This document shows, in pieces, positions 4,884-9,654 of a stretch of 64,000 nt of DNA. Each line of letters opens with the position of its first letter. The first letter of the stretch is position 1. Under the pieces are notes generated by a model that saw only the letters and a list, made by a program, of their open reading frames with translations, made no database searches and was not told the origin of the DNA. The DNA lies in contig JBCCPK010000010.1 in assembly GCA_039024915.1 (NCBI GenBank), forward strand, positions 1 to 64,000. Direction: 5' to 3'. The DNA is from Pseudomonadota bacterium. GTDB lineage: Bacteria; Pseudomonadota; Alphaproteobacteria; Rhizobiales; MH13. The position numbers were made by a program, and so were the translations under genes.

Positions 4884-5606
4884 ATGTCGTCCAACTCGCC
4901 TGATTCCGCTTCGCTGGTCGATCGCGCAAAGACCGTTGCGAAGTATGTTGTGTACCGGACACCGGCGATCAATTCGGTCACCCGCCCGAAATACCCGTAC
5001 GGCTTGGTTCCTGCGCAGCTAACCTGGCTGTGCAATGCCATCGACGCGACGCGCCAAGCCGATGGCGGCTCGGAACCTGGCTGCATTGTTGAAATTGGCG
5101 TCGCGCAAGGCAAGAGCACTGTCTTCCTGCTCGAGCATATGCGCGATATGGGCGACACACGTCCCTATTACTGTGTTGATACGTTCTCCGGCTTTGTCGA
5201 CGAGCATGTCGAGCACGAGGTGAACGCGCGCGAGAAGAAACGGGCCGCGTTCAGCGCGTTCTCGTACAACGACGAAGAAATCTTCAAGAAGAACATCGAG
5301 GCGAACGGCTTCTCCAACATGCACACGCTGGCGGGCGACGCCGTCAAAGTGGACTGGAGCAGCCTGCCACCCATCGACGTGATGCTGCTGGATGTGGATC
5401 TGTACATCCCCACCCTGCAGATCCTGAACAACTCGCGCCCCTTCTGGTCGGCCAACGCGCATATCCTGCTCGACGATGTGAAGCCCGGCGGCAACTGGGA
5501 CGGCGCTGAACAGGCGTATCGCGAGTTCACCGAGGCCAACGATCTGCCTTATGTGAAGGTTGGCTCGAAAGGCGGTTCAATTATCCAGGGAGGAAAGCAA
5601 GCCTGA
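4884..5606 (+). CDS. TylF-like class I SAM-dependent methyltransferase
   Basis: This 240-residue cytoplasmic protein has a class I methyltransferase core. Motif I is VEIGVAQGKSTVFLLEHM (about residues 69-86), followed by CVDTFSGFVDEH and then VMLLDVDLYIPTLQ and ILLDDVKPGGNWDGAEQAY. The DxDxYxPT and DDxxxxG blocks are typical of macrocin-O-methyltransferase (TylF)-type enzymes, which methylate hydroxyl groups of sugars or small molecules in a metal-assisted way. The N-terminal 65 residues are less conserved. It lies between sdhA (12 nt before) and sdhB (66 nt after), in the same orientation, so it should be expressed with complex II. The substrate is unknown, and nothing proves a role in succinate metabolism. 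Confidence 0.8.
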   Translation: MSSNSPDSASLVDRAKTVAKYVVYRTPAINSVTRPKYPYGLVPAQLTWLCNAIDATRQADGGSEPGCIVEIGVAQGKSTVFLLEHMRDMGDTRPYYCVDTFSGFVDEHVEHEVNAREKKRAAFSAFSYNDEEIFKKNIEANGFSNMHTLAGDAVKVDWSSLPPIDVMLLDVDLYIPTLQILNNSRPFWSANAHILLDDVKPGGNWDGAEQAYREFTEANDLPYVKVGSKGGSIIQGGKQA

Positions 5607-6470: not shown

Positions 6471-6558
6471 CGGTCGGGTGGCACACCCAGAGCGAACGCA
6501 CACGAAAAATGGGTGTAGCGGTTGGGCGGCACGCCCGGAGCGGGCGCGCACCAACAGC
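6463..6558. repeat. Imperfect 48-bp tandem duplication spanning the sdhB stop
   Basis: Copies at 6463-6510 and 6511-6558 both begin GGGTGTAGCGGT and share GGC.CGCCC.GAGCG. The first copy contains the sdhB stop codon. The second is a diverged duplicate downstream, so a short 3'-end duplication is implied. Confidence 0.6.
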
Positions 6559-6582
6559 TATGGTCACGCCACTTTCACCAAA

Positions 6583-6603
6583 GCCCCGGACTTGATCCGG
6601 GGC
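6583..6603. repeat. REP-like palindrome, type A
   Basis: GCCCCGGA-CTTGA-TCCGGGGC is a perfect 8-bp stem with a 5-nt loop. The same core occurs in reverse orientation at 9450-9466. Elements of this type are dispersed between genes in many Hyphomicrobiales (established knowledge). Confidence 0.75.
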
Positions 6604-6689
6604 CTCGTCGAATAGTCGGCTCAAGGCCCCGGACACGCTGACGCGTTCCGAGGTTTTTCCATTGTGCCTCGCCCCAATCCCATGCCGTC

Positions 6690-6762
6690 ACCCCCACCCT
6701 TATGGCGGGGGTCCATGCTTGAGATTCCACCTTCCATCGGGCCGCCGGCATCGCATGGACCC
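6690..6762. repeat. Nested palindromic element
   Basis: ACCCCC (6690-6695) pairs with GGGGGT (6707-6712). GGGTCCATGC (6709-6718) pairs perfectly with GCATGGACCC (6753-6762) across 34 nt. The two stems share bases and so are alternatives. It resembles a composite intergenic repeat. Confidence 0.55.
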
Positions 6763-6875
6763 TCGGGACAGGCCGGAGGGCGACGCGCAGTGGTAAGCTG
6801 CGGCGCCAGCGTTGATCATCTGGCCAGCCCAACCTGTGCGTGCCATGTTGTCCGCTTCTACGGGCTTGGGAACAC

Positions 6876-8570
6876 ATGGCCGACATCGACGTTACGAATC
6901 GCAAGCAGCTTGAGGCGTTTTTAAGCACCGTCGCCGAACGCGAGGGCGGGCGCGAGCAAGTGATCGCGTTCGCGGCAAGAGCGGCGCTACGCGCCATGCC
7001 GGCGTTTATTTCTCTCAAGCTTGATGAACGGTCCGAACTCGCCCGAACTATCCTGCTGCCCTGTCTTCGCGCTATGGCAGCGCCATGGGCTGCGGCCACA
7101 TATCCAGCCCATGGCGCTGATCTTGCGTCTGCTGCCCGCGCTGCTGCCGATGCTGCTGCCCGCGCTGCCGATGCTGCTGCCTACGCTGCCGACGCTGCCG
7201 ACGCTGCTGCCCGCGCTGCCGATGCTGCTGCCTACGCTGCCGACGCTGCCTACGCCGCTGCCGACGCTGCTGCCCGCGCTGCCTACGCCGCTGCCTACGC
7301 TGCCGACGCTGCCTACGCCGCTGCCGACGCTGCTGATGTCGAGGCAATCGAGGCGGGGAAAACCCTCGCTCTTCAACCATTATGGCCAGACGGAGAGAGC
7401 AACTGGGCGCGCAAGAATTGGCAGACCCTCCGCCAAAGCCTTCTCGATCTTGAGGAAGATTGGGAGGTCTGGATCGACTGGTACGAAGCGCGGTTGCAAG
7501 GCAAACCAACCTTTAGGCTATCGGCAGCCGCCAACGAGCGCATCGAAGTCGCCCGCGTCCTTGAGATCGAGGAAGAGGACTGGAAGCAAGGCCCCGCCCA
7601 CGTCAACGCCAAGATCAAAGCGATCATCGAGCGGGAGACGGAACTCGACATCGTTGAGCGGGAGGCGAACGCATTTGGTGAACCTCTGGACAAGGCCGAC
7701 GAACCGCCGGCTGAGCCTGATCCGGGACCGGGTCCAGCATACTCCGCGACAAACGGCAAACTTGCGCGTACAAGGGCGCCACCAACCGAGGATGATGCGA
7801 ACGCGAGCGAGAAGCTTCTCCCCCGGCTGATTTCGACGACCGAGCGGCTGGCTGCAATGGCTATAAAGCTAGAGAATTCGCACCCGGAACTTGCTTTCGC
7901 AATCAAGGAGTATGCCGTCGAAATCAATCGCCCGTTTGAGGAGCTAGACCTTGCCGGACTCTTCGCGACCGGCGGAGCGTTGATGGAAATGCACCTTGCA
8001 TTTGAAAGTGCCGACGGGCCGACCATGACGGAAGAGCTTGAGCCCGAAGTTAACGGGCTTCTTGCCAACGTGGCCCGGCAGCACGGAGCCTTTCTGCTTG
8101 GCACGGAAGAAGGAAAGAACTTGGTCGAGCGCGCTGACCGGTTCCTTCAACAGGCACAACTGCTTCGTGAAATTGAAGCACCCGGGAACACCCTTCTCGG
8201 TATTCTCACTGATGACGCTGATCTCGTTGATGAAGAGACGAGGAGCGCGCACAGGCCGCTGCGAGACCTATTGCTTCACTTTGACTGGACCGTTGGCCGG
8301 ACGGGTTACGCAGCAATGGTTACCGTCCGAAAGGCCGTCTTCTTCTGTTTAATGTCGATTGTTGCGGCAGGTGCTGTCGGCGGTGGTCTACAGCTATTTG
8401 GAACGCTCGCAGGCGATCCTCAAATGCAGTTTTTGCACGTTGTAATTCCGTTCGTTCGCGACTACGCGGCGCAAATCCTTGCCTTTTACCAACATAGCCC
8501 GGAGATGCGCGCCTACGCTGAATATGCGATCGCATTAGCCAAGAACGCAGACAGAGACAATAAAGCCTAG
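6876..8570 (+). CDS. Alanine-rich heptad-repeat membrane protein of unknown function
   Basis: I do not recognise a characterised family for this 564-residue protein. Residues 1-80 are helical and globular. Residues 86-154 (DNA 7131-7337) consist almost only of Ala with Asp, Arg or Tyr at every third or fourth position. The mean spacing is about 3.5 over 19 intervals, giving one stripe on an Ala helix. Next come a Trp-rich block, WEVWIDWYEARLQG (196-209), an acidic segment, and a Pro-rich linker near 275-290 (PPAEPDPGPGPA). A long helical C-terminal part follows, with one membrane helix near 485-508. The ATG at 6876 is preferred to a GTG at 6840. It stands alone, flanked on both sides by palindromic repeats, which suggests an accessory gene. 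Similar Ala-repeat plus W..W..WY..RL.G proteins occur in other alphaproteobacteria from memory. A defence or immunity role has been suggested for some Ala-repeat proteins but is not shown here. Confidence 0.7.
   Translation: MADIDVTNRKQLEAFLSTVAEREGGREQVIAFAARAALRAMPAFISLKLDERSELARTILLPCLRAMAAPWAAATYPAHGADLASAARAAADAAARAADAAAYAADAADAAARAADAAAYAADAAYAAADAAARAAYAAAYAADAAYAAADAADVEAIEAGKTLALQPLWPDGESNWARKNWQTLRQSLLDLEEDWEVWIDWYEARLQGKPTFRLSAAANERIEVARVLEIEEEDWKQGPAHVNAKIKAIIERETELDIVEREANAFGEPLDKADEPPAEPDPGPGPAYSATNGKLARTRAPPTEDDANASEKLLPRLISTTERLAAMAIKLENSHPELAFAIKEYAVEINRPFEELDLAGLFATGGALMEMHLAFESADGPTMTEELEPEVNGLLANVARQHGAFLLGTEEGKNLVERADRFLQQAQLLREIEAPGNTLLGILTDDADLVDEETRSAHRPLRDLLLHFDWTVGRTGYAAMVTVRKAVFFCLMSIVAAGAVGGGLQLFGTLAGDPQMQFLHVVIPFVRDYAAQILAFYQHSPEMRAYAEYAIALAKNADRDNKA
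7131..7337 (+). repeat. Coding low-complexity repeat (GCTGCC-rich)
   Basis: About 69 codons alternate GCT/GCC alanine codons with GAT/GAC, CGC and TAC. Larger blocks repeat, for example GATGCTGCTGCCTACGCT twice. In other frames it reads as Leu-Pro or Gly-Ser repeats, which explains several spurious ORFs. The tract should be prone to length change by slippage or recombination in units that keep the frame. Confidence 0.85.
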
Positions 8571-8650
8571 CCGTTTTCCCGCCGGGCGATGCGTAGGCCG
8601 TCATCGCTTTACGGTTCAGCCAGAAGGGTTCCAGCTCCACAGACCGTCAT

Positions 8651-8669
8651 CCTCGGGCTTGGCCCGAGG
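8651..8669. repeat. REP-like palindrome, type B
   Basis: CCTCGGGC-TTG-GCCCGAGG is a perfect 8-bp stem with a 3-nt loop, preceded by GTCAT. Its design is that of the CCCGGACTTGATCCGGG elements but with a different stem sequence. It lies 80 nt after the alanine-rich gene. Confidence 0.7.
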
Positions 8670-8835
8670 ACCCATGTGGTGCTTGCCGCTATTATGACGC
8701 GGCCGGGATGGTATGGACCGTAGGCACGAGGCCTAGGGTGACACTTGGTGATGGAACCGCTCGTTCAGCACGCTCGCGGCTGCGTTACTTTCGCTGCACG
8801 ACCGACATCCTTCTTTGCTCTGTGCCTCCTTTTTT

Positions 8836-8877
8836 GCTCTGTGCCACCGACCCTACGTGTCTGCGGCACAACCGCTG
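8836..8877 (+). repeat. Diverged hairpin unit, GTGCC/GGCAC version
   Basis: GCTCTGTGCC, then 19 nt, then GGCACAACCGCTGG mirrors the units at 9101-9206, with GTGCC/GGCAC replacing GTTCC/GGAAC. Both sides of the stem have changed together, so pairing is kept. A partial copy (TTTGCTCTGTGCCTCC) lies directly upstream at 8814. Confidence 0.5.
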
Positions 8878-9100
8878 GATTTATCCCCGCCCCCTATTCC
8901 TTCCCCCATCATCCCTCCCGCCTTTCGCCGATCATCTGACGAGGCGCTCGGGGTCGTGTCCCGGGCCGGTGGAGGGGCGAAGCGCTCAGTCTTCTTTATG
9001 GGGTCACGCCCAGCAAAGGTGCTGAGGGTGAAGTCAAAGGCGTCTGATGGTTTGCATCAGGCCGACAGTGTTGGTGGGGATGACGCTCCGGTCCATTCTT

Positions 9101-9206
9101 GTGGCTCTGTTCCTCCGGAACAACCGCAGGTTGTGGCTCTGTTCCTCCGGAACAACCGCAGGATGTGGCTCTGTTCCACGGCAAAAGCCGTCGGAACAAC
9201 CGCGAA
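9101..9206 (+). repeat. Tandem hairpin-forming repeat array, three units
   Basis: Two near-identical 32-bp units start at 9101 and 9133 (GTGGCTCTGTTCC, TCC, GGAACAACCGCAGG). A third starts at 9165. In each, GTTCC and GGAAC can pair. In the third the 3-nt loop is replaced by a longer insert that itself pairs (ACGGC-aaaa-GCCGT), extending the stem. There are no CRISPR-like spacers. Confidence 0.7.
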
Positions 9207-9449
9207 TGGCCCGACCGCTTTCATCCCGAACCCATCCCTGGCGCGTTGATTCCGCTAGAGGTAGCGCCTTACGGTCCGGGTGGCTCGCCTGCCCAAGCCG
9301 CCTTTGTATAAGCCAAAGAACGCTTCGCACGGGGTGCTCGAGCCTCTGGTTCATCCGTGAGGCAGCGCCACAGACATATCAAAGACACAGGCGACGCCGC
9401 ACGGCACCCCGTCTGCCCCGCATTGCTGATAGCGCTGGTCTTGCGCTTC

Positions 9450-9466
9450 CCCGGATCAAGTCCGGG
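9450..9466. repeat. REP-like palindrome, type A, reversed
   Basis: CCCGGA-TCAAG-TCCGGG is the reverse complement of the core of the element at 6583-6603. The two therefore bracket the alanine-rich gene in inverted orientation. Confidence 0.7.
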
Positions 9467-9654
9467 CTCAACGTGCGATCAGCACGATGACACCGCGAAC
9501 CGGCAATGTCGGCTCGCGCTTCTTGTGCTGCGCCTTTTGAGCTGCAAACGGAAGACATGCCCGGTCACACGAGTGTGAAGGCGCGGGGCTGGAGCGCTGC
9601 ATCCAAAACGTGCTTGGCTGACGGGCCTCCGCCTGCCGCACCCACGGACCGTCC

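Follow-up and report, generated by a model that had tools for sequence, protein, structure and literature searches.

The gene at positions 6876–8570 of the window, by which we mean the whole analysed stretch of 64,000 nucleotides of alphaproteobacterial DNA, is interpreted here with moderate confidence as an allele coding for an intracellular conflict (immune-like) protein that is made from a single gene in Alphaproteobacteria and swaps modules. Comparison with related genes shows a conserved N-terminal domain, designated AW, with an internal slot that has repeatedly acquired Ala-rich tandem repeats. The part C-terminal to AW is exchanged for unrelated modules, TIR and KAP NTPase among them, and between close species such exchange can be followed at one chromosomal site where the adjacent genes are unchanged. 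The swaps and slot expansions are documented at the level of sequence, from which we infer the function.

Organization of the gene and its protein

The open reading frame lies on the forward strand, begins with ATG and contains 564 codons. Both halves of its product are matched by relatives, which rules out a non-coding frame. According to whole-genome searches of relatives, the N-terminal half is shared with a KAP NTPase protein (L003/L056) and the C-terminal half with a leucine-rich-repeat protein (L002/L088; 39% over 306 aa). Since some relatives match one half only, the protein has two modules, AW and A2, arranged as follows (residues in the numbering of the window protein).

6876..8570, + strand: whole gene, 564 aa (AW domain, linker and A2 module); open reading frame, relatives match the two halves separately
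6876..7130, + strand: N-terminal helices of AW (aa 1–85), from alignment A4; A33, R35 and R39 invariant in 26 members
7131..7337, + strand: Ala-rich slot with the 3–4 stripe (aa 86–154); DNA tandem array at 7131–7335; part of one helix, 77–160/165, in low-confidence single-sequence models
7368..7637, + strand: Trp block (aa 165–254), from profiles A1/A3; best-conserved part of AW; W170, W202, Y203, W236 and N244 invariant in 26 members
7638..7703, + strand: linker from AW to the A2 match; lies between the two profile matches, low pLDDT
7704..8567, + strand: A2 module (aa 277–564), common to LRR-A2 and TIR-A2-LRR proteins
8334..8390, + strand: hydrophobic 19-mer AVFFCLMSIVAAGAVGGGL, possible membrane helix, not conserved

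The Trp-rich block WEVWIDWYEARLQG and the Pro-rich linker named in the original prediction are both present. The protein had no match in Pfam or PADLOC even at E 10, and no phage-defence model matched; searches of NCBIfam, PHROGs and PDB gave weak matches or none. Matches of the alanine helix to GltG (E 2.1) and to phage tail families (E 0.08 to 9.7) were set aside as composition.

The AW domain and its distribution

AW is an N-terminal domain made up of helices with an A.R..(A/S)LR-like motif, the Ala-rich slot and the Trp block. The Trp block defines a family. Pfam searches with 26 members gave hits to five families, none in more than one member and none better than E 0.0095, and no match for the family; the A4 profile had three matches in PDB (E 0.031 to 0.43), which were likewise attributed to composition. 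AW is absent from the family databases searched, and no description of it was found in the literature searched, where most papers were represented at listing level.

In the window's order, the Trp-block profile matched 37 of 397 genomes, belonging to 24 of 141 genera. Seven of 337 genomes were matched in a sample of the class, the window's own included, and five of 200 in a sample of the phylum that includes members of the class, all five within the class. AW occupies one place in 36 of the 37 genomes, and G083 has two places inside one ORF. The 43 AW ORFs that were read comprise 36 from the order, six from the class sample and one from a plasmid; the 36 correspond to 38 places minus a 46-aa fragment in G317 and the second match in the ORF of G083.

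The window's genus is represented by three further genomes: a relative is present in G001 and missing from G002 (78% complete) and G003 (98%). The window and G001 genes occupy a similar place: the G001 relative adjoins an orthologue of the transporter sited 2.7 kb downstream in the window. Their Trp blocks are 57% identical over 104 aa, the G001 protein has no Ala stripe, and its C-terminus is module X, not A2. The genes after sdhB differ among G001, G002 and G003. The neighbours of AW genes that were named by eye are mostly housekeeping genes and do not form a defence island; the longest-ORF lists used for this include antisense frames.

A position between repeat clusters had been suggested for the window gene. 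The downstream side (8571–9654) does hold small tandem repeats of 32 and 19 nt, but no direct repeats of at least 18 nt were found upstream, at 6471–6875. The 32-nt copies at 9099–9194 are two exact and one diverged, and their 29-nt core occurs nowhere else in the window. Elsewhere in the window, a methyltransferase-like gene (by eye; 4884–5606, + strand) lies between sdhA and sdhB and had no hit in the sdh regions of the congeners G001, G002 and G003. Two adjacent ORFs on the minus strand (731–1342 and 1403–1903) encode, by eye, related thermonuclease-like proteins.

Origin of the alanine stripe

Residues 86–154 consist of 49 Ala, 10 Asp, 6 Tyr and 4 Arg. The 3–4 spacing holds throughout: each of the 19 intervals between the 20 non-Ala residues is 3 (ten cases) or 4 (nine cases), with a mean of 3.47. 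When the residues were placed at random, 3s and 4s alone arose in none of 200,000 trials, which rules out a chance origin. The best helical angle of the stripe is 104 degrees, or ~3.46 residues per turn. The underlying DNA is a tandem array that can be read as 63 nt x 3.4, as 51 nt x 3.7 (from 7143) or as 21 nt x 9.8. All 49 Ala codons of the array are GCT or GCC; in the rest of the gene, GCG or GCA account for 43 of 78. The regularity of the stripe is real and was produced by duplication of a short unit, and the strictness of its spacing traces to this DNA duplication.

As a defining feature of the protein the stripe fails, since relatives do not keep the 3–4 spacing. Among 33 of them, the next-highest fraction of 3/4 intervals was 0.50, against 1.00 in the window. 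Over 43 slots, the longest run of such intervals between non-Ala residues was 20 in the window (a count that includes a preceding Ser), 14 in L094 and at most 5 in the other 41. When Gly, Ser and Thr were also treated as small, runs of 10, 7 and 6 were found in L115, L072 and L079, respectively. The 3–4 pattern can reappear, always on a repeat, yet it is not kept.

What recurs in the slot is tandem expansion. Slot repeats exceeded all 200 shuffles of the slot's own codons in 13 of 43 genes, compared with 3 of 40 control stretches of equal length taken after the Trp block; the excess was narrow in two of the 13 (L067, 60 vs 57; L120, 38 vs 36). A tandem-repeat score above 150 was reached by six slots and by no control. 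Among the strong slots the units are 63/51 nt (window), 45/15 (L061), 60/24 (L118), 48/39 (L094), 75/15 (L114) and 54/42 (L115). Because the units differ, the comparison suggests that the Ala-rich expansions were separate events in different genes. Three slots (L076, L114 and L120) are cut by a contig end. Slippage alone was ruled out as the whole explanation, as the domain around the slot is conserved and differing units recur in the slot. The AW protein at L083:2693–5170 carries, in addition, a second tandem repeat with a 117-nt unit (TRF score 339) in its long middle part, outside the slot.

AlphaFold modelling of the window protein, performed without an alignment, gave helices throughout, with a mean pLDDT of 53 for the whole protein and 65 for AW, and one long helix spanning residues 77–160 or 77–165. 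These low-confidence models fit a helix; they do not establish the fold, the oligomer or the membrane position. As for the predicted C-terminal membrane helix, the hydrophobic 19-mer (KD 2.08) is a possible candidate, but the A2 relatives L088 (maximum 0.99) and L075 (maximum 1.27) have no segment as strong. A membrane-anchored stalk or coiled assembly defined by the Asp/Arg/Tyr stripe on an alanine helix would suit the period of 3.46, the long predicted helix and the 19-mer. Relatives, however, keep neither the spacing nor the hydrophobic segment, the stripe derives from DNA duplication, and A2 lies between TIR and LRR in other proteins. A membrane stalk is thus not supported, and we consider this explanation of the protein improbable.

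C-terminal partners of AW and the A2 module

The C-termini of the 43 AW genes carry TIR, KAP NTPase, DUF6161, DUF1963, unnamed helical modules, or nothing. Four proteins combine AW with TIR_2 and module X (L062, L063, L068 and L074; TIR_2 E 1.7e-24 to 1e-29), and the congener L055 has module X without TIR. All four fused TIRs keep a Glu before Trp, which we take to be the catalytic Glu. Another four combine AW with KAP_NTPase (L056, L073, L087 and the Rhizobium leguminosarum protein L094; E 5.7e-32 to 1.2e-16); PADLOC reported QatA/PifA-like matches for the first three, L094 being outside that scan. A Walker B-like DD[LV]DR motif is kept in all four KAP proteins; the strict Walker A pattern is found in one, and the others have PWGGGK(S/T)T or similar. 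L056 additionally shows a sub-threshold nSTAND_NTPase5 match (E 0.0015) and an NPHP3_N match just over the cut-off (25.5 vs 24.8 bits), KAP_NTPase being far stronger. The stretch before KAP_NTPase in L087 and L094 looks EVE-like by eye, and Pfam made no call there. The C-terminus of L067 is DUF6161 with two hydrophobic segments, and that of L121 is DUF1963. No output follows AW in L057, L070, L078 and L086, which stop just past the Trp block, nor in L081, which has two AW matches.

A2 was also found in L075, in LRR-A2 proteins (L088 and L122) and in TIR-A2-LRR proteins (L089–L093, family f27). The latter unite a TIR with leucine-rich repeats in a single polypeptide, with a helical module between them; Pfam calls TIR and LRR in L089 and L090, and similarity supports the assignment in the others. 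Weaker A2-like C-termini occur with Mrr_N in L124 (5693–6895; E 2.1e-5, small set) and in L123 (5491–6981), whose N-terminal HEPN/RES match is weak and below the cut-off. A match in G030 (L125, E 6.5e-4) was dropped as probably due to chance, the frame reading by eye as an unrelated protein. No recognised enzyme matched the A2 of the window protein. Pairwise hhalign comparison of C-termini (66 pairs) gave the best values for A2/TIR-A2 (99.7), c7177/c6072 (96.0), A2/c5859 (91.7) and c6482/c61 group (71.1), with the rest at or below 50.4; a single superfamily for all C-termini was not borne out.

Module exchange at chromosomal sites

AW is present in five of eight genomes of genus g34 and lies between the same neighbours in three species, carrying module C60 in G036, another module in G077 and TIR-X in G191. 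Eleven neighbouring proteins compared between G036 and G077 are 94–99% identical, whereas the AW proteins are 43% identical, over their N-terminal part only. Upstream DNA identity is 95–100% at ~0.5–1 kb from the gene and 65–85% over the last 450 bp before it; within the gene it is 44–83% over the AW part and 36–62% from gene position 900 to 1800, returning to 90–100% from ~40 nt past the stop codon. The G077 and G191 proteins show 85% identity over the first 286–294 aa and are unrelated beyond; their DNA match breaks at gene position 824 and resumes just past the stop. G111 has no AW at the shared site, and an AW-only gene lies past the neighbouring cluster. Similarly, in genus g64, G072 (TIR-X) and G107 (C65) share long flanks on both sides, and a good match inside the gene is limited to 169 bp of the Trp block (86%).

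These replacements bear on the possibility that the protein is a weakly constrained, rapidly evolving scaffold or regulator in the cytoplasm, in which variation reflects drift and repeat slippage with no conflict involved. The sporadic presence of AW, its housekeeping neighbours, the AW-only versions and the slippage-prone Ala codons all agree with such a role. It does not readily account for gene halves having been replaced between G036 and G077 while their neighbouring proteins stay nearly identical, or for partners that are long open modules and belong to known immune types in eight genes, and we regard it as rather unlikely.

Polymorphic toxins have a constant N-terminus and an exchanged C-terminus, a layout that AW proteins share. 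On this alternative, a constant delivery or N-terminal part would carry swapped toxic C-termini, each with a matching immunity gene. The swaps in g34 (G036/G077/G191) and g64 (G072/G107), however, keep the genes on both sides, so no adjacent immunity gene co-varies, and such unchanged neighbours argue against a toxin–immunity pair. No orphan or silent cassettes were seen in the stretches fetched, where hits outside annotated genes were other copies of known places, and no trafficking domain was matched. A toxin is accordingly very unlikely.

An rpoD gene lies 0.9–3.3 kb upstream of AW in 7 of 33 loci, across families and with five C-terminal classes (the 33 are loci with at least 3.5 kb of upstream sequence; 10 of the 43 had less). 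At L066, rpoD is 7.6 kb away on the other side. Shared descent at the site and repeated insertion explain this linkage equally well, and the modules differ either way. A Trp-block tree was built from 43 sequences over 89 columns, and 8 of its 40 inner branches are starred. Placing the 18 partner classes on this tree takes 31 changes, against a possible minimum of 17 and a shuffled mean of 33.9; as few changes occurred in 7 of 200 shuffles. Partner classes thus barely follow the tree, with slight clustering.

Preferred sites and sporadic presence would also be expected of a cargo gene that has no defence role and is carried by an unseen mobile element with favoured sites such as downstream of rpoD. 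Searched with the window protein, plasmid records gave no match; the N-domain of a relative matched one of 72,556, a copy on a conjugative plasmid of Rhizobium leguminosarum Vaf-108, which is in line with such carriage. Against it, AW had no match in phage records, none of nine pattern-fitting stretches in viral contigs was confirmed, and the same-site pairs differ in the gene alone, with part of the gene kept. Cargo status is therefore judged quite unlikely.

A separate observation concerns L069 and L074, whose AW coding DNA is 78–97% identical per 90-bp bin (most bins above 90%), with much of the flanking DNA at 65–95%. An exchange of the AW part itself between the two species would account for AW DNA that is more alike than much of its flanks.

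Comparison with known systems

Effector-associated domains (EADs), which belong to NTP-dependent conflict systems, are described as small, non-enzymatic and mostly all-alpha. A genome carries multiple copies, with a core component bearing one and effectors bearing others, often in adjacent positions (PMC7159879). AW resembles EADs in being fused to varied effector domains, and may likewise be non-enzymatic and helical: it measures ~250 aa, and the low-confidence single-sequence models predict helices throughout. Unlike the multi-copy EADs, AW has a single place in 36 of the 37 genomes that have it, which argues against EAD-type coupling.

Immune receptors of the NLR/STAND type combine a variable repeat element with swappable effector modules and have TIR and LRR partners. 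The AW family shares these traits; in contrast, STAND/NACHT NTPases were unmatched at the family cut-off in the window protein and most relatives, and the KAP P-loop belongs to a different NTPase family. The TIR_2 and KAP_NTPase modules of single-gene TIR/KAP (QatA/PifA-like) defence proteins also occur in AW proteins, but the window protein has neither, and the AW part lies outside those models. Membership of the window gene among EAD, STAND or polymorphic-toxin proteins was rejected on copy number, on the absence of a STAND/NACHT match and on the unchanged neighbouring genes, respectively.

Possible function and significance

The accessory or conflict-related role originally guessed for the gene gained strength from the TIR, KAP and LRR partners and from the swapping at fixed loci. 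Taken together, the data fit a protein engaged in an arms race: AW is joined to TIR and KAP, A2 occurs in TIR-LRR proteins, presence is sporadic, repeats expand, and half a gene is replaced while its surroundings stay unchanged. Points that weigh against a conflict role are the mostly housekeeping neighbours, the window protein's lack of a phage-defence match and of a recognised enzyme in A2, the few starred branches of the tree with its slightly clustered partners, the low confidence of the structure models, and the AW genes that carry no output. AW might sense an invader, or self-assemble on sensing, with the long Ala helix serving as a length-variable recognition or packing rod. Sensing or assembly would then release or cluster the C-terminal output: NAD+ cleavage in the case of TIR, an ATP-driven action in the case of KAP and, in the window protein, A2, perhaps acting at the membrane. 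Counter-adaptation by phages or other invaders would drive the swapping.

A bolder proposal, which we put forward tentatively as possible rather than probable, is that these genes are a bacterial counterpart of hypervariable immune-receptor loci. In a single gene that favours housekeeping sites, particularly the one downstream of rpoD, minisatellite expansion would rewrite the recognition helix of the AW receptor, and recombination sparing the Trp block would exchange the output (TIR, KAP, A2, DUF6161 and others). A2 would then be a new output or hub domain, present also in LRR and TIR-LRR proteins.

If the conflict interpretation is right, AW and A2 would add two domains for proteins unnamed in the family libraries searched. 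Receptor variation through repeat expansion and effector variation through module exchange would be observable at one bacterial locus in close species, and the manner in which single-gene bacterial immune proteins alter both sensing and action would become testable.
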